NCBI GenBank assembly: GCA_903825285.1
Contig: CAIJZY010000027.1
Coordinates: 1 to 45,656 of the forward strand
Direction: 5' to 3'
From: an uncultured Opitutia bacterium
GTDB lineage: Bacteria; Verrucomicrobiota; Verrucomicrobiia; Opitutales; Opitutaceae
DNA: 45,656 bases
The notes beneath the pieces were generated by a model that searched no databases, had not been told where the DNA came from, and saw only the letters and a list, made by a program, of their open reading frames with translations. Below, piece by piece: positions 8,774 to 23,431 of this stretch; the stretch's first letter is position 1, and the number at the start of each line of letters is the position of its first letter. The position numbers and the translations under genes were made by a program.

Positions 8774-9175
8774 GACTGGCTCGCCAAGTCGTAGCCGCTC
8801 ACTAAGTCGTTGCCCGCCTTCGCTCGCTGAACGCGAGCTTCCGCCGTCGGTCTTCGAGCTATGGCGTGACGAGACGGCGCGGCAGTCTTCTGGCCGCTGT
8901 TGCGGCGGCGAACCACATGGGACGCAACACTGGATTAGACTGGCTCGCCGAGTCGTAGCCGCTTGCTAAGTCGCGGCCCGCCTTCGCTCGCTGAACGCGA
9001 ACTACGGCGCGGCAGTCTTCTGGCCGCTGTCGCGGCGGCGAACCACATGGTACGCAACACTGGATTAGACTGGCTTGCCGAGTCGTAGCCGCTTGCTAAG
9101 TCGCAGCCCGCCTTCGCTCGCTGAACGCGAACTACGGCGCGGCAGTCTTCTGGCCGCTGTCGCGGCGGCGAAGAC
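8774..9175. repeat. Three tandem copies of a ~130-bp non-coding repeat next to tRNA-Met
   Basis: The 446 bases between the TPR gene and tRNA-Met hold no convincing gene. They are built from three direct copies starting with GACTGGC at 8774, 8938 and 9068. Copies two and three are nearly identical over ~105 bases and repeat at 130-base spacing. Copy one is 164 bases because a short tract near its middle (ACTAC in the other copies) is replaced by about 38 other bases. Copy three is cut short exactly where tRNA-Met begins, and GACTGG recurs at that junction (9173). Each copy carries small inverted repeats such as GACT...AGTC. Units are far too long and adjacent for CRISPR. It may be a genome-specific dispersed repeat amplified beside the tRNA. 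Confidence 0.85.
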
Positions 9176-9250
<75 letters not shown>

Positions 9251-9375: not shown

Positions 9376-10653
9376 CTAGAACGGCGCCGTTGAAAGCGGC
9401 AGCCGGGTGCAGGAATCGGCCGCCACGGGCAGGTAGATCCGGCAGGAAGTGCCCATTCCCTCCTGCGTCTGCAGCTGCAGGAACCCGCCGTGGCGCTTCA
9501 CGATGCTCCGCACGGTGGGCAGCCCGAGCGAGGTCTCTTTGCCCAGCAGGCGCGCGGCCGCCAGTGGCTCCCAGACCTTTGCCAGCAACTCGGGATTGAT
9601 GCCACAGCCGGTGTCCTCGACCCGCAGTCGCACAAACGCCCCCACTCTGCCAAAGGGCAGGCAGTCCGCCGGCAGCTCGTCGATCCGGCAGTTCTCCGCA
9701 ACGAGGCTCAGCACGCCACCGTTCGGCATGGCCTCGCGGGCATTGGTGCAGAGGCTGAGCAGCGCATGGCGCAGCTGCGCCGGGAACGCCTTCACGGGTG
9801 CGATCGAGGCGTCGATCGTCGATTCCACCGTGATGCTGCACGGGAAGGTCGCGCGGGCAAAGGCCGCGACCTCCTCCACGATCGCCTCGGCCTGGAGCCG
9901 GCGCGCCGCCGCCCGGTCTGCCGTCGCGAAGGCCAGGACCTGCGCCACCAGGTCCGCGCCACGGTGCGCGCTGCGTTCCACGGTGTCCAACAGCGCGCGG
10001 GCCTCGGCTGTTTCCGCCGCATCCCGCAGCATCGGCACGGCCATGAAGATCGGGGCCAGGATGTTGTTGAGCTCGTGGGCCGAGCCCGTGGCGAGCAGGC
10101 TGATATCTTCCAGCCGGCGGATGCGCTCGACGGGGTCGGCGAAGCTGAGAGTAAGCTGGCGGGACTCGCGGAGCTCCAGCTCGAGCTGGCTGATCCGCTG
10201 CTCGGCCACGTGACGCAGTTGCCGCTCCTCCCGCAGGTCGAGCACGCGGTGCAGCGCCGCGCCGAGGCGCCGGAAATGTCCCTTGGGCACGCAATCCTGG
10301 GCGCCGCGCGCCAACGCCTCGCCGGCGCGGTCGTCTCCGAGGTCGCCGGAATAAAAGATGAACGGAACCTGCGGTGCGAATGCCCGGGAAAGGGCCAGGG
10401 CCTCGAAGCCGTCGAACGCCGCCGGGGAATAGTCCGCGAGGATCAGGTCGCAGGACTGCTGGCGCAGCTCGCCGACGAACGCCGGGCGGTTTGTCACCAC
10501 GGTGTGCCGGGCGCCGGGAAACTCTCGCGCGATCAGCATCTGCACGGCCTCGGCCTCCGGGAGATTGTCCTCCAGGTGCAGGACCCGCAGCCCGCTGGTG
10601 GGCTCGTGCCGAGACTTCACGTCGGCACTCGGGCGGGTAAGCGTGGCGTCCAT
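9376..10653 (-). CDS. Response-regulator receiver/histidine kinase fusion
   Basis: A 425-residue soluble protein. Residues ~20-135 are a receiver domain: acidic pocket LHLEDN, phospho-acceptor Asp74 in ILADYSP, FYSG and Lys124 in VPKG. A coiled coil (~140-185) leads to a dimerisation helix with the His box SAHELNNILAP (His193). A HATPase domain follows with an N box (CTNAREAM), DTGCGI, and LGLPTVRSIVKRHGG. It has no membrane segment, so input comes through the receiver, from another kinase. The ATG at 10653 overlaps the stop of the YcaO gene by one base (TGATG), so translation is coupled. The longer reading upstream is a shadow of the YcaO gene. Role in the locus: probably a relay within the peptide/YcaO operon, by inference. 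Confidence 0.88.
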   Translation of the reverse strand: MDATLTRPSADVKSRHEPTSGLRVLHLEDNLPEAEAVQMLIAREFPGARHTVVTNRPAFVGELRQQSCDLILADYSPAAFDGFEALALSRAFAPQVPFIFYSGDLGDDRAGEALARGAQDCVPKGHFRRLGAALHRVLDLREERQLRHVAEQRISQLELELRESRQLTLSFADPVERIRRLEDISLLATGSAHELNNILAPIFMAVPMLRDAAETAEARALLDTVERSAHRGADLVAQVLAFATADRAAARRLQAEAIVEEVAAFARATFPCSITVESTIDASIAPVKAFPAQLRHALLSLCTNAREAMPNGGVLSLVAENCRIDELPADCLPFGRVGAFVRLRVEDTGCGINPELLAKVWEPLAAARLLGKETSLGLPTVRSIVKRHGGFLQLQTQEGMGTSCRIYLPVAADSCTRLPLSTAPF

Positions 10654-11540
10654 CACCAGAAGAAATAATCGTTCCCGGCGCGCAGGAACCCGTCGGACGG
10701 CGGCCGCAGGGCGAAGCGCCAGACCGTGGCATACTCCGACCACGGTCCGGGAATATCTCGATCGCAGGCCACCGTGGGCCGCTCCATGCGGGACGTCGCC
10801 GGCGTGCGCAGCCGGCGCTGAAACTGCGCGTGACCGGCCTCCGTGGAGAAATAGAGGCAGCGGCGCTCGAAGCGGTCGCTCGGCGCGGATCTCTCCCCGG
10901 AGACATAGGAGAGCCAGGACGAGCGCAGGACCCACTCATGGCGGGCCAGCTCGATGACCGCGCGCTCGCAGGCGCCGCCGAAGGATTCCTCGGCCGCGTG
11001 ACCATACGCATAGCCGCCGTAGGGGGTGCGGGCGTACGCGACCACCGTCACGCCACCAAAGGGACCGTCGATGGCCACGGCGGAGACCCCGGGCCAGTCC
11101 GTGCTGAACTGCCGGCCCTCTGCGCGGCCCTCCCACCACGACACGAGGCTGTAGCGCTCGACCGCCTCAAGCATCGCCTTGCGGCGGGCGTGGGAGCGCA
11201 GCAACCCGGGAAACGCGGACATCCCGTTCGAGGAGGGATCCACGTCGAAACCGAATTCCTCGGCCCGGTCGGAGCGCACCACCGAGTGGAAGGCCCAGCG
11301 TTCCAGGGCCTCGGAGACGGCCATGTGCCGCGCGACGCTCAGCCGCGCATGGGTGCCGCTGCCGTCGGCATCGCTGTAAATGCTGAGGGCGCGGCGCGGA
11401 GTGAGGCCGGCGGTGAGTCGGGCATTCGCCTGAAACATCCGCCGGCCACACACCGGGAACACACCCGTTTCAATGCGGGCAACCGGCCCACCATGGGTGG
11501 CGAGCACATTGCGGTAACGCAGCGCGGCCAGGCTGAGCAT
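10653..11540 (-). CDS. YcaO-domain protein, putative RiPP-modifying ATP-dependent enzyme
   Basis: The 295 residues carry the three conserved YcaO blocks in order: HMAVSEALERW (Glu-rich Mg/ATP site, ~73-82); NGMSAFPG followed by RRKAMLEAVERYSLVSWW (~106-136); and GHAAEESFGGACERAVIELAR (~180-200). YcaO enzymes phosphorylate a peptide backbone amide to make azolines, thioamides or amidines in ribosomal peptides. No azoline E1-like partner, TfuA or dehydrogenase is next to it, and the protein is short for the family (often 380-450), so the C-terminal part is reduced. It follows a small Cys/Thr peptide gene by 26 bases and overlaps the downstream kinase gene by one base. ATG at 11540, no Shine-Dalgarno. 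The domain call is good; the reaction is unknown. Confidence 0.8.
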   Translation of the reverse strand: MLSLAALRYRNVLATHGGPVARIETGVFPVCGRRMFQANARLTAGLTPRRALSIYSDADGSGTHARLSVARHMAVSEALERWAFHSVVRSDRAEEFGFDVDPSSNGMSAFPGLLRSHARRKAMLEAVERYSLVSWWEGRAEGRQFSTDWPGVSAVAIDGPFGGVTVVAYARTPYGGYAYGHAAEESFGGACERAVIELARHEWVLRSSWLSYVSGERSAPSDRFERRCLYFSTEAGHAQFQRRLRTPATSRMERPTVACDRDIPGPWSEYATVWRFALRPPSDGFLRAGNDYFFW

Positions 11541-11566
11541 GGTGGTCGGGGGTTGAGGGTTAGCGT

Positions 11567-11773
11567 TTAGTCATCACCGCCGTCGCCACCCGTGCAGGGC
11601 AACGTGCAGGGAGGAACAGAGGCCCCCGTGACCACCGTGCCGCCCAGCGTGAGACGATCACTCTGACTCATCGGATCGAGACGATCAGCGGCCCGGGCAA
11701 GCCCGGCCGCGAGAAGGAGGGTTGAAACAACCCCGAGAACGAGACGTTTGGCTGAATTCATAGCGCAGAGCAT
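11567..11773 (-). CDS. Small secreted peptide, candidate precursor for the YcaO enzyme
   Basis: A 68-residue ORF; starting at the second Met (11761) gives 64. It begins MNSAKR, then a hydrophobic stretch LVLGVVSTLLLAAGL and the likely signal-peptidase site ARA/AD. The mature part is about 40 residues and ends VPPCTLPCTGGDGGDD, with two Cys-Thr pairs, Gly-Gly repeats and an acidic tail. It is the first gene of an apparent operon with a YcaO protein, the enzyme class that acts on Cys/Ser/Thr backbone sites, so it is a plausible substrate. I recognise no family. Against it: most YcaO substrates have non-Sec leaders. It could also be an ordinary small envelope peptide with a disulfide. Confidence 0.65.
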   Translation of the reverse strand: MLCAMNSAKRLVLGVVSTLLLAAGLARAADRLDPMSQSDRLTLGGTVVTGASVPPCTLPCTGGDGGDD

Positions 11774-11808: not shown

Positions 11809-11826
11809 CTACCGGGATTCCGGTAG
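11809..11826. promoter_or_regulatory. Inverted repeat in the divergent promoter region of the peptide and kinase genes
   Basis: CTACCGG (11809-11815) and CCGGTAG (11820-11826) are perfect 7-bp arms around GATT. The site is in the 99-base gap between the peptide operon and the hybrid kinase, so one bound dimer could control both. The nearby LuxR-type regulator (15690-16352) is an obvious candidate. A second perfect palindrome, TTCACTAGTGAA (11866-11877), covers the GTG start codon of the kinase. Confidence 0.5.
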
Positions 11827-20047: not shown

Positions 20048-21010
20048 TTACCGTCCGCCCAGCGGCAGCAGGATGCGGCGCGTGAAGACATACGACTCCG
20101 ATTCCGCGATCTGCCACCAGTCCCCCGTGAGTTGCCCCGATTCCAGCGCCGCGATCCGGCGCGCGCCCTCGGGAGAGAGGATGCGCAGCAGAACATCCGC
20201 GACGAAAAGCCGGGGCGCATGCCCGGCCGTCACTCCCTCATCTCCGCCCACTGCATACTCGAGTGTCCCTCCCGCCTTGGGAAACAGTCGGATCAATGAG
20301 GTCCCATCCGCACCTGGAAACTGCGCGTCGCGACTAAACCGCACGCCAAAATCCACGACCTCCTCCGCCAGCAGGGCGCGCAGCGGCGGCGACACGAGAC
20401 TGCCCGCCGACCCCGCTGCCACCGAGGCAGTCGTGTAGGCGGCCGCGGATAGGTCATAACCGCCGGCAAACGTCGCCGACGCCGTCGCCTCGGACCGATA
20501 CAGCAGGTAGCGACCTTGCGTGCTGCCGGCCGTGGGTGCTCGTCGAATGAGCTGGTAAGCCACCGCCGCTGGCGCCGTGGGTTCAGCGGAGCGCGCATCG
20601 CCGCCGCGCCGTGTTGTGATACAGCGCAGCCACATTCCCGCCCGGCCAAATCGGGCGGTGCGGAACGGCTCTGCATCCAGTCGCACCGAAGACTCCTCCT
20701 GCTTGGCCCCACCGACCCAGGCACCACTGGCACCGCCTCCGCCCTGGACCGTGGCCGCCAGCCAGATGCCAGGTCCGTCAGGTCCCCGTGCCCCCTGCAG
20801 GTCGAGGGTCAGCAATTCCAGCACATGGAGTGCCTCCGCTTCCGCGGCTAGGCGTCCCTGCGTCCGCTCCCACCCCGTCATTATGCGCGCCAGCATGAAC
20901 GCCAACGCCGCCATGATCACCACGCTGATCGCAACTGCGACCAGCAGTTCGAGTAAAGTGAACCCCGCGGGCAGCGCGTCACCTGACTTTGGTGCTCGCG
21001 TTGCCCTCAT
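20048..21010 (-). CDS. Verru_Chthon cassette protein C-like prepilin
   Basis: 320 residues. The prepilin motif is PAGFTLLELLVAVAI: Gly before the cleavage site, Phe at +1, Glu at +5, then a hydrophobic helix. I chose the ATG at 21010-21008 because it overlaps the upstream stop codon as ATGA. A longer reading from 21127 would run inside gene B and push the motif unusually far in. The mature domain is long for a pseudopilin, resembling GspJ-like minor pilins. Likely processed by a prepilin peptidase, which is not encoded in this window. Confidence 0.78.
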   Translation of the reverse strand: MRATRAPKSGDALPAGFTLLELLVAVAISVVIMAALAFMLARIMTGWERTQGRLAAEAEALHVLELLTLDLQGARGPDGPGIWLAATVQGGGGASGAWVGGAKQEESSVRLDAEPFRTARFGRAGMWLRCITTRRGGDARSAEPTAPAAVAYQLIRRAPTAGSTQGRYLLYRSEATASATFAGGYDLSAAAYTTASVAAGSAGSLVSPPLRALLAEEVVDFGVRFSRDAQFPGADGTSLIRLFPKAGGTLEYAVGGDEGVTAGHAPRLFVADVLLRILSPEGARRIAALESGQLTGDWWQIAESESYVFTRRILLPLGGR

Positions 21011-21570
21011 GGATTTACGGCTAGGGTGAGCACCACGAATGACATCTGCGAAGGATCGACCGTGACTGCGCCCGATGTCTTCCCGTGAGGGTAAGGCCAC
21101 CAAACCCAGGCCGTCGCCACCAGGCAACCCGCCTCGAGGGCCGCACCTGACAGCGGCGGATTCGCCCGCACCTCTGCGAGAAAAAATCGCTCGTCGGGCG
21201 CGATGCCCAGCGCGCAGTCATCGGCATCTTCCTCGCACACGACTCTGAGGCCGTCCGCATCACCGATGAACCGCAGTGGCGCCGGCCCTGCTTCCGAGGG
21301 CATCCGGGCCGCAAGCGAGGCCAGTCTCTCCCAGGGATCGCTTCCTGGGGCCGTGCGCAGTAGGCGTTGCAGTTCCACTTCGATCGGTTCGGCCAGATGC
21401 ACGGCTCGCGTGCGTGACATCGCGTCGGACGCCAGTCGGTTCCCCGCGACCATGAGCATGATCAGGCTGGTCGAGGCCAGCGCGAGGATCCCGATCGCGA
21501 GCAACACCTCGACGAGGGTAAAGCCTCTCCGCCAACACCCCTGCCTCCGCCTGAAATTTGAGCCTCTCAT
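21007..21570 (-). CDS. Verru_Chthon cassette protein B-like prepilin
   Basis: 187 residues beginning MRGSNFRRRQGCWRRGFTLVEVLLAIGILALAS: a basic leader, then G/FTLVE with Glu5 intact and a hydrophobic helix, as in GspI/PilV-like minor pseudopilins. It follows gene D by 15 bases and overlaps the start of gene C by four (ATGA). No other motif is visible in the periplasmic part. The assignment to B rests on order (D-B-C-A) and size. Confidence 0.75.
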   Translation of the reverse strand: MRGSNFRRRQGCWRRGFTLVEVLLAIGILALASTSLIMLMVAGNRLASDAMSRTRAVHLAEPIEVELQRLLRTAPGSDPWERLASLAARMPSEAGPAPLRFIGDADGLRVVCEEDADDCALGIAPDERFFLAEVRANPPLSGAALEAGCLVATAWVWWPYPHGKTSGAVTVDPSQMSFVVLTLAVNP

Positions 21571-21585
21571 GCGTCCGACTGCCGA

Positions 21586-22248
21586 TCAGAATCCAAGGCC
21601 CGCGAACCGATCGACCGGCAGGGCGAGTCCATAGTCGCTCAGTACGATGCCATGCGCGGACATCGGGAGTTTGAGTTCAACCCCAGCCGGCGTTCGCCGT
21701 CCCGCGGCCAGCACCACTCGATCGTCGCTTCCCGCCACCGGCGTGTCGGTTGGTCCCAGCGGGTGCTGCAGGCGAAGCCATGCGCGCGGTCCAGAGTCCT
21801 CCGCCACCAGACTCTCGGGCTCGGCCAGCACCAGCGTTGACACCCACGCCGCCGGCCAGGGCGCACCGTCGTTTCGCAGGCTCACGCCTTGGACACTGGC
21901 CGTGCCCGGAACCACGAACACGCCCGAAGGCAACAGGACGCCACTGTCCAGTGGCTGCCAAAACTCGGAATCCGGCGCGTCTTCCGCAGCCAAACGCAGT
22001 CGGCGCAGAAATCCTTCGCTGGTCGGTTCAGCATCGACGAGCAACACCACCCGCGTGGCATGCAGGGCGGCGTATCCGCGTCCGGCTGCCAGCATGGCGG
22101 CGACCAGCGATTGACCGGACCGCAGCATCGCCGTGGTCGGACCCGATCGAAGCGACGAGCCGCCGGCGACGGCCAACACGGCGATCAGCGCTAACACCAC
22201 CAGGAGTTCGATCAGGGTGAAGGCGTGAGTGAACGGATGTGTTTTCAT
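21586..22248 (-). CDS. Verru_Chthon cassette protein D-like prepilin
   Basis: 220 residues, MKTHPFTHAFTLIELLVVLALIAVLAVAGG. The cleavage motif is HA/FTLIE: Ala replaces the usual Gly at -1, which prepilin peptidases tolerate to a degree, and Glu5 is present. The remaining domain resembles GspH/FimT-type minor pseudopilins. Its ATG overlaps the stop of the preceding prepilin gene as ATGA, so translation is coupled. Gene B follows after 15 bases. Confidence 0.77.
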   Translation of the reverse strand: MKTHPFTHAFTLIELLVVLALIAVLAVAGGSSLRSGPTTAMLRSGQSLVAAMLAAGRGYAALHATRVVLLVDAEPTSEGFLRRLRLAAEDAPDSEFWQPLDSGVLLPSGVFVVPGTASVQGVSLRNDGAPWPAAWVSTLVLAEPESLVAEDSGPRAWLRLQHPLGPTDTPVAGSDDRVVLAAGRRTPAGVELKLPMSAHGIVLSDYGLALPVDRFAGLGF

Positions 22249-22835
22249 CTCCAGCTCAGCACCAGGTCCTCAGGCTGAGAACCACGTCCGGCTGAGTAAA
22301 AGATGACCCCCGCATTGATCCCGACGTGCAGGTCGAGCGCATCGGATATTGGCGACAAAGGCTCGCCCCCGTCCGCGCGCACCGGCCGGGCCGGTCCATC
22401 CGTTTCGGTGATCCTTCCGTCCCCATCGTGATCATAGAGCACCCCGATGTCGGTGTTTCCGAAGGCATCCACCAGTGCGTCCTTGGCGGCGTTCATCTCC
22501 TCCTCCCCGATCGCGTAGAACACAGCCTGACGGTAATTTCCTCCCAAGGCCTCGCTCGGGGCCGGCGCTGATCCGTCCACTGTCCTTCCGGTCACCGCAC
22601 CCGCGAATCGCGCGGCGTCCAGTTTTCCGGTGCCGGCATCCACCGCGGGAAAATAGCCGTACTCCTGCCGGAACAACTCCATGGCCGCGGCCCATTGGCC
22701 GAAGCGCACCTTGGTGCGGGCCCGCTGCGCGGTGATGCGCGCCGCGGCCGTGGTTGGAATCAGAATGCCGGCCAGCAATCCGATGATGGCGATCACCGTC
22801 AGCAGCTCGAGAAGCGTGAAGGCCGCGCGTCGCAT
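22245..22835 (-). CDS. Type II secretion/type IV pilin-like protein
   Basis: 196 residues from the ATG at 22835, beginning MRRAAFTLLELLTVIAIIGLLAGILIPTTAA. The short basic leader, A/FTLLE with Glu5, and the helix are those of GspG/PilA-type proteins, followed by a helix with QRARTKVRFGQWAAAMELFRQEYGYFP, the usual major-pseudopilin pattern. The mature part contains YDHDGDGRITETDG, resembling an EF-hand-type calcium loop; GspG proteins bind calcium, so this may stabilise the pilin. It starts two bases after the upstream gene's stop and overlaps gene D by four bases. Confidence 0.82.
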   Translation of the reverse strand: MRRAAFTLLELLTVIAIIGLLAGILIPTTAAARITAQRARTKVRFGQWAAAMELFRQEYGYFPAVDAGTGKLDAARFAGAVTGRTVDGSAPAPSEALGGNYRQAVFYAIGEEEMNAAKDALVDAFGNTDIGVLYDHDGDGRITETDGPARPVRADGGEPLSPISDALDLHVGINAGVIFYSAGRGSQPEDLVLSWR

Positions 22836-22837
22836 GC

Positions 22838-23431
22838 TCAGCGATTCGCATAGAGATTGGCCGCGGCATTCGGCGCCGTGGAAACCACGCCTCCGCGCGC
22901 ACCCGTGCGCTCCGGCACCACCGTGTCCACGCTCGGCAGGAGTTCGGATTTGCTGCGGGCGCCGTACGAAAAGAGCACGAACCCACGCTCCGCCGCGGAC
23001 GGTCCCCTCGTGCGCGCAAAGTAGGCGTACTGGTATTCGCGCCCCCACGGATCGACGAAGCTGTTACCGACGGCTGCCGGATGCGCCTCGTCGCGCAGCA
23101 CGATTCGCGCGGAACCCACGCAACTGCGCCCGTTCATGGCCGCACCCTCGGGACCCATGTGTCCGCTCAAGGCCTGGTACAATTCCTGTGGCGTGCCGAC
23201 CGCCTGGGGATAATCGCCGTTGTCGCGGCGATACTGCTCCAGCATGAGGCTGATGGCCGCGAGCTCCGTCCTCGTCCGCTCCACCGCCGCCTGACTCCGG
23301 GCGCCCTGCATCGCACCCAGGCCCAGCATCATGAGCAGGCCCATGATCGCCATGACCGCCAGCAGTTAGAGCAGCGTGAACGCCGCCCGGCGAACGCAGG
23401 CTGCATCAAGCTTAACTGGGACGCACAACAT
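22838..23431 (-). pseudogene. GspG-like pseudopilin with a stop codon at the conserved Glu5 position
   Basis: Read from the ATG at 23431 the frame gives MLCVPVKLDAACVRRAAFTLL, then TAA (23368-23366), then LLAVMAIMGLLMMLGLGAM and a normal pseudopilin body (MLEQYRRDNGDYPQAVGTP). The stop sits exactly where every prepilin has Glu5; GAA to TAA is one base change. Downstream of it the frame is open for 171 codons and looks conserved. A protein restarted at the ATG at 23353 would lack the cleavage site and the first part of the helix and could not be a normal pilin. It is the first gene of the operon. Explanations: recent nonsense mutation, sequence error, or, less likely, readthrough. Confidence 0.75.

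Follow-up and report, generated by a model that had tools for sequence, protein, structure and literature searches.

Introduction

Quorum sensing in Bacillus can rely on the ComQXPA system, in which a precursor peptide, its modifying enzyme, a membrane kinase and a regulator with a GerE domain are encoded together and support peptide autoinduction; the modifying enzyme, ComQ, is a prenyltransferase that acts on tryptophan. The chemistry of YcaO enzymes is familiar from antibiotics and from protein modification, and partnerless members exist, such as BotC of the bottromycin pathway. The hybrid two-component systems (HTCS) of Bacteroides sense glycans and carry their own DNA-binding domain. Here we describe a locus on contig CAIJZY010000027.1 (assembly GCA_903825285.1) of an uncultured Opitutia bacterium of the Opitutaceae; the whole stretch analysed, 45,656 nucleotides, is referred to as the window. 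The locus encodes a small peptide with a Sec-type leader, a compact YcaO protein, a divergent hybrid kinase with a predicted beta-propeller sensor and a REC-GerE response regulator (Table 1). We consider it somewhat probable that these genes form a modified-peptide autoinduction circuit following the logic of ComQXPA, with a YcaO enzyme, Sec export and a propeller kinase in the corresponding roles.

A first-pass annotation, made from the letters of the window alone, had proposed that a Sec-exported peptide, a minimal YcaO enzyme and a downstream REC-kinase make up a signalling operon. Sec signal peptides are described as highly unusual for precursors of ribosomally synthesised and post-translationally modified peptides (RiPPs) in the available portion of one report (PMC12452194). 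Small open reading frames (ORFs) of Opitutus terrae, one of ten genomes, entered the training data of a precursor classifier and apparently belong to its negative set, according to the excerpt at hand of that work (PMC7794033).

Results

A small gene with a conserved leader and a variable core precedes YcaO

Screening one genome per species in GTDB r220 for relatives of the window YcaO gave 101, and the 80 best, which correspond to 79 loci, were retained; below, G-numbers denote the genomes and L-numbers the loci compared. With a hidden Markov model (HMM) of the leader, a precursor was recognised ahead of YcaO in 68 of 77 loci (66 at E<1e-3); three others are truncated by contig ends. The first-pass annotation had named YcaO genes consistently lacking the small ORF as the pattern that would speak against it, and this is not what the loci show. 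Its 68-residue ORF with a Sec-type leader is present, with its conserved start at the internal methionine given in Table 1, and the 26 bases between precursor and YcaO and the single base shared by the YcaO stop codon (TGA) and the REC-kinase ATG, at position 10653, are as it described. No leader match was obtained at L082, L100, L101, L105, L112, L113, L115, L116 and L118, and all of these except L082 and L105 (7/9) have a different small ORF whose N-terminus is hydrophobic. At L100 and L101 the ORFs upstream of YcaO resemble precursors, differ in the leader and contain repeats built around PPGVPPCPGGGIIIK-like units; in L100, which was not part of the HMM set, a two-fold repeat occurs, one copy of which contains a cysteine.

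The association was equally close in a second sample of 57 genomes (our own and 56 relatives). Precursor matches at E<1e-5 occurred in 15 genomes, own genome included, all of them bearing YcaO and all matches lying at the YcaO locus; 15 of the 16 genomes with more than a YcaO remnant had such a match, the exception being G021, whose candidate precursor carries another leader. Some genomes, G032 among them, have two YcaO loci, and in G032 a precursor was recognised at only one of them. Weak matches in G005, G009, G025 and G045, at E 0.002-0.009 and within frames 203-731 codons long, were treated as chance.

Leader and core differ sharply in their conservation. For 44 pairs with YcaO identity of at least 75%, drawn from 51 loci, median identity was 0.64 in the leader, 0.30 in the core, 0.47 in the sensor domain and 0.74 in the kinase part, and core identity stayed at about 22-30% irrespective of distance: leaders are conserved and tails hypervariable. 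The locus has the gene arrangement expected of a RiPP, namely an adjacent precursor gene with a conserved leader and a variable core. The first-pass annotation had regarded an unconserved tail as damaging to its proposal and had taken Cys and Thr as the key residues; taken literally the tail is indeed unconserved, while cysteine recurs (67 of 71 precursors, with at least two in 46 and fewer than two in 25) and the recurrent pair is Pro-Cys, proline preceding 65 of the 139 cysteines in the 71 precursors, 5.2-fold over expectation. Two to five copies of a cysteine-containing core are present in L059, L078, L080, L098, L110 and L111, and two tandem precursor genes in L062, L063 and L065; in L063 and L065 one of the two tandem precursors has a tail without cysteine.

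Distant pairs were saturated and the closest pairs alone were used for dN/dS. The repeated core of L110/L111 has 33 synonymous changes over 53.5 sites versus 15 non-synonymous over 156.5 sites, and the leader of L076/L109 has 6 over 26 versus 1 over 73. Purifying selection is clear in both pairs, and the precursor ORFs are therefore coding and constrained. Judged from these alignments, the small ORF is a genuine gene and not a chance ORF.

The adjacent enzyme is a compact, divergent YcaO

By sequence, similarity of the window YcaO to solved YcaO structures is barely detectable. Pfam PF02624 matched the 295-amino-acid protein at 28.1 bits (cut-off 25.7) over 45 amino acids only, the NCBIfam SagD model gave a weak 24.2 of 219 bits, and a search of the PDB with 18 YcaO sequences returned ankyrin-type noise only. 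The AlphaFold model (pLDDT 94.9, from a 47-sequence alignment) was more informative: at E<=0.001 Foldseek matched two PDB chains only, both of the microcin cyclodehydratase McbD (6gos_D, E 9.2e-6, TMq 0.53; 6gri_D, E 2.5e-5, TMq 0.52), and by profile the second and third Glu blocks align with McbD, weakly (E 0.19). Across 18 YcaO sequences there is a GGP motif near the N-terminus, three Glu/Arg blocks in which E77, R81 and E125 are invariant and E80, R129 and E197 near-invariant, and a nearly invariant aromatic C-terminus of FFW type; the block residues are given as conserved positions, single ATP ligands not being assigned. The YcaO identity proposed at first pass is borne out by these matches, and, judged by the Glu/Arg blocks, the ATP-site residues, whose absence would have told against it, are in place.

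The usual YcaO partners had been reported as not adjacent, and this stands. No Pfam family for an E1-like, ocin-ThiF or SagB partner was found among 29 window ORFs scanned, the genome at large not having been searched for E1 or SagB. Genome-wide, with positive controls, there was no TfuA (PF07812), by a method that also missed the window's own YcaO, and no PqqD-type RiPP recognition element, divergent members of which can escape such searches. Scanning all of the home genome with the Pfam YcaO model gave no match and overlooked the window YcaO as well, because the family is too divergent, and is therefore uninformative on further YcaO genes. As modelled, the protein is a real, compact, apparently partnerless and divergent YcaO, and it may carry out ATP-dependent YcaO chemistry on the precursor.

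The lack of a recognised partner in the window and of TfuA or PqqD in the genome, within the limits of those searches, could also mean that the signal is an unmodified exported peptide, with YcaO needed only for maturation or protection of the peptide, or acting on another substrate, and the existence of precursors without cysteine would agree with this. We regard this alternative as improbable: every strong precursor match in the 57 genomes lies beside YcaO, the Glu/Arg blocks are intact, and BotC offers a precedent for an enzyme without a partner.

A propeller kinase and a REC-GerE regulator are linked to the precursor

Among fetched loci in which the upstream sequence extends for 1.5 kb or more, 67 of 72 have a divergent propeller kinase (the exceptions are L062, L075, L115, L116 and L118), and in some clades the kinase half alone matches that of the window. 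The protein comprises an N-terminal helix, a periplasmic double beta-propeller with Y_Y_Y domain, a transmembrane helix, HisKA, HATPase and REC; Pfam returned Reg_prop, Y_Y_Y, HisKA, HATPase, REC and, weakly, Hpt. The sensor model (pLDDT 85.5) shows the N-terminal helix, an all-beta body and the transmembrane helix, and matches the periplasmic domains of the HTCS proteins BT3049 and BT4663, the latter a heparin sensor according to its PDB title. Of the 57 loci that extend 5 kb upstream, 47 have a REC-GerE regulator at the 3' end of the kinase; in L102, L105 and L106 the match is downstream of YcaO instead, and in seven of the 57 none was found at either place. An orphan regulator with 71% identity occurs in G001 (L205, 1480-2157), a genome without YcaO or propeller sensor. 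A dedicated membrane kinase and regulator are thus linked to the precursor, linkage and not the ligand being what was tested.

These counts redraw the proposed peptide/YcaO/REC-kinase trio. The linkage of peptide and YcaO stands, and so does that of a kinase, the conserved two-component partners being the propeller kinase and, beyond the coordinates of the first-pass annotation, the REC-GerE regulator. The REC-kinase follows YcaO in only 18 of the 79 loci fetched (in 67 of the 79 the sequence continues for 1.3 kb or more beyond YcaO) and is an accessory, clade-restricted component. A motif-based count of HATPase cores downstream (12/56) was too strict and was not used. The broader proposal, a minimal YcaO and an exported-type peptide tied to two-component signalling, is conserved in the Opitutales.

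Ten places in Bacteriovoracaceae that carry this YcaO, whole or in part, were examined (L190-L199, of which L195 and L199 are contig-edge fragments). An HATPase kinase, differing in sensor type from the Opitutales propeller, stands beside YcaO in eight of the ten, and an SBP_bac_5 protein directly upstream of YcaO in seven, with one more (L192) frame-broken. The SBP_bac_5 family is best known for peptide binding. Tiny ORFs with hydrophobic leaders were found upstream of YcaO in L115 (two), L116 and L118.

The likeness of the sensor to HTCS periplasmic domains, heparin-sensing BT4663 included, raises the possibility that the peptide is an exported effector, such as an antimicrobial or metal-binding RiPP, whose production the kinase and regulator switch in response to another ligand, for instance a polysaccharide fragment. 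The 46 cores with at least two cysteines would suit such a role, as would the copper binding of the Sec-exported bufferins, as given in the accessible part of PMC12452194, and the null result of the core/sensor coevolution test (see Discussion). Against it stand the shortness and hypervariability of the cores, 25 of which have fewer than two cysteines; the absence of a recurrent immunity or transporter gene recognised by eye among downstream neighbour clusters, upstream flanks not having been clustered; and the Bacteriovoracaceae, where YcaO again accompanies a kinase, of different sensor type, together with a peptide-type binding protein. Among 12 genomes of the genus, moreover, the five that bear YcaO are the only ones with sensor matches (E<=1e-30), two of the five also having a 27% paralogue, so that the sensor domain is never seen without YcaO. 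We consider the effector explanation rather unlikely.

A palindrome of NarL type lies upstream of the precursor

In 26 of 68 loci the sequence TACC-N8-GGTA precedes the precursor, versus 0.15 in shuffles, and spacings of 4-7 and 9-13 between TACC and GGTA gave no site in these loci. Counted from the leader start, 16 sites lie at -63 to -65, eight at -86/-87 and five elsewhere. The more general 16-bp palindrome (YAC-N10-GTR with at least five of seven arm pairs) is present in 34 of 66 upstream regions by comparison with a shuffled mean of 0.78 and maximum of 4; some of these are at -107, and the recurrent positions step by about two helical turns. With inverted heptamers, a 2-bp gap and TAC...GTA ends, the palindrome fits the NarL 7-2-7 site, for which TACCCCTAAAGGGGTA is the reference in the portion of PMC4549865 available. 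It is presumed to be a putative binding site of the REC-GerE regulator at the precursor promoter.

In most classes the operator, as aligned, changes together with the recognition helix of the linked regulator, the classes having been defined after inspection and being clade-structured. Helices of type KHR[FL][NT] go with TACCGG (13/13, with degenerate outer bases in L051), [TSA]H[RK]RN with TACCTT (9/9), SRRRD with CACCT (8/11), TFR with TACTGG (2/2) and THRSN with TACnnGAAAA-CGTA (3/4). Other helices (one unreadable), GHRRN and LHRRN among them, account for 14 of 53 loci and have no recognised operator class; at L110, with a G/L-HRRN helix, TACC-N8-GGTA has another inner sequence. The metagenome-assembled genome CALFNN01 holds two systems (L044 and L108) with both main operator types, each with its own regulator. 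A Fisher test of regulator presence against the palindrome was not significant (p 0.28), since the regulator is present at almost every locus.

Genome-wide, allowing at most one mismatch, G003 had 12 operators versus 2 for the reversed-pattern control, and in five of the other nine genomes the count was below or equal to control. The same palindrome was seen upstream of REC-kinase-like genes at L151, L163, L164 and L169 (G000, G007, G008 and G009); G008 and G009 lack YcaO.

Distribution and block loss of the locus

YcaO matched in 17 of the 57 genomes, G004 having only a 26-residue remnant, and in 14 of 387 genomes of a phylum sample (own included), all of the same order. Hosts of the 79 loci were Opitutaceae, other Opitutales or Verrucomicrobia, one 'bacterium' (L075) and three Bacteriovoracaceae. 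Four-part synteny spans genera and YcaO identities down to about 35%. In G004 (L039, about 8950-9200) the start of the regulator runs, out of frame, straight into the final 26 codons of YcaO, followed by the REC-kinase; the end of the regulator, the propeller kinase, the precursor and most of YcaO are gone together, an arrangement that fits one deletion from a gene order like that of the window. Since the G004 draft comprises about 130 contigs, an assembly error is possible.

Two-component genes are abundant and the REC-kinase belongs to some loci only, which could suggest a fortuitous neighbourhood of unrelated regulatory genes. This is highly improbable, being already contradicted by the linkage counts as well as by synteny across genera at such YcaO distances, conservation of the operator and the joint absence in G004.

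Organization of the locus and its neighbours

Table 1. Positions of the features of the locus within the window.
Feature	Position	Strand	Remarks
Accessory REC-HisKA-HATPase protein, 425 aa	9376..10653	-	1-base overlap with YcaO; in only part of the loci
Compact partnerless YcaO, 295 aa	10653..11540	-	Pfam, alignment, AlphaFold/Foldseek, McbD profile
Precursor peptide gene	11567..11761	-	64 aa from conserved Met; Sec-type leader, A-D-R-L-D-P motif, variable Cys tail
Longest precursor ORF, 68 aa	11567-11773	-	Conserved start at second Met (11761)
Putative modification region of core, V49-C56 (VPPCTLPC)	11594..11617	-	Site inferred; Pro-Cys enrichment
Inverted repeat CTACCGG-GATT-CCGGTAG	11809..11826	.	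Inner 16 bp fit NarL 7-2-7; putative regulator site, precursor promoter
Divergent hybrid sensor kinase, 1287 aa	11873..15736	+	GTG start uncertain
REC-GerE (NarL/LuxR-type) response regulator, 220 aa	15690..16352	-	Convergent with hybrid kinase, overlaps kinase 3' end

Downstream of YcaO a second protein family was noted in 11 loci (L076, L081, L084, L085, L087, L089, L092, L093, L095, L108 and L109), its L095 member having an HATPase_c domain, and one GspF-like flank recurs in six loci. In the window, the end of the REC-kinase gene adjoins a tRNA-Met gene (9176-9250, minus strand) and a 43-bp sequence directly repeated at 9000 and 9130; further away, three ORFs with N-terminal methylation (pseudopilin) motifs lie on the minus strand at 20048-23048.

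Discussion

What the sequences show is the gene content, its conserved linkage, predicted enzyme and sensor folds, leader conservation, core repeats and the operator with, in most classes, its co-change with the regulator helix. In the circuit we envisage, the 64-residue precursor would be synthesised and its tail altered at Pro-Cys by the stand-alone cytoplasmic YcaO, most likely through ATP-dependent azoline formation (-18 Da). The precursor's own leader would direct Sec export and then be cut off, setting free the tail, in several copies in some species. The periplasmic propeller domain of the divergent hybrid kinase may sense this product, upon which phosphate would pass from the kinase to the REC-GerE regulator; bound to the 7-2-7 palindrome, the regulator would alter transcription of precursor and YcaO, and perhaps of the kinase too, DNA binding and the sign of the feedback being predicted here.

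Several observations weigh against this interpretation. Modification, export, release, sensing and the identity of the ligand are steps that we infer. Four of the 71 precursors have no cysteine, a canonical A-x-A cleavage site, judged by eye, is missing in some lineages, and the small ORFs of Bacteriovoracaceae, also without cysteine, are therefore weaker as precursors. In three close pairs (L062/L063, L062/L065 and L068/L071) the core is near-neutral, with ratios of 0.69-0.98 (leader 0.43-0.69). The closest solved relatives of the sensor include BT4663 and the kinase may therefore read carbohydrate. A partial Mantel test of core against sensor divergence gave r 0.02, with 297 of 1000 permutations as high (51 loci), a test of low power because the cores are saturated. 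As to the operator, the generic palindrome is missing from 32 of 66 upstream regions, three of the 11 SRRRD helices lack the CACCT site, none of four GHRRN/LHRRN helices comes with a TACCTT site, and shared descent accounts for part of the helix/operator match, since operator classes drawn up after inspection follow clades. Genome-wide counts in the home genome are not above control (8 versus 7 for the reversed pattern, at most one mismatch) and we therefore claim no regulon.

Whether the circuit exemplifies a class of peptide pheromones modified by YcaO, exported by Sec and served by a full dedicated circuit in the Opitutales (precursor, YcaO, propeller kinase, GerE regulator and 7-2-7 operator, some with multiple cores and some with two systems per genome), plus a related YcaO-kinase-binding-protein module in Bacteriovoracaceae, seems to us evenly poised. 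If so, the Opitutales would have a candidate peptide signal and the partnerless compact YcaO family a purpose, and peptide signalling by modified RiPPs would extend to Gram-negative bacteria. The genes are small enough for joint expression in E. coli, and enzyme, signal, receptor and operator are separately testable. Searches of literature text, with most subscription papers and bioRxiv preprints outside their coverage, found no description of the cassette and no YcaO-made pheromone.

Among described systems, the cyclodehydratases of thiazole/oxazole-modified microcins, such as McbD, share the YcaO fold, the Glu-rich blocks and an upstream precursor; the window enzyme differs in its 295 amino acids, its FFW-type C-terminus and in that no E1-like, SagB, TfuA or PqqD partner was found. 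The rSAM/PCAT YcaO clusters of Bacteroidales likewise involve YcaO-modified ribosomal peptides in Gram-negative bacteria, but as described in the accessible part of PMC10352776 they have GG-motif precursors and PCAT transporters, unlike the locus here; the term 'signal peptide' does not occur in the text of that paper. Bufferins and other RiPPs made by MNIO enzymes resemble our peptides in combining a Sec signal peptide with cysteine motifs in the precursor; they depend on an MNIO enzyme with PME-type partners and have a role in copper, and the portion of PMC12452194 consulted mentions no kinase cassette. With the HTCS proteins BT4663 and BT3049 the kinase has in common the periplasmic double-propeller and Y_Y_Y fold and its hybrid nature, whereas at the present locus the REC-GerE regulator is a protein of its own and the peptide/YcaO operon is divergent from the kinase. 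The likeness to ComQXPA lies in the joint encoding of precursor, modifying enzyme, membrane kinase and GerE regulator, from which this locus departs in its YcaO, its Sec-type leader, its beta-propeller hybrid kinase and its Gram-negative Opitutales host.

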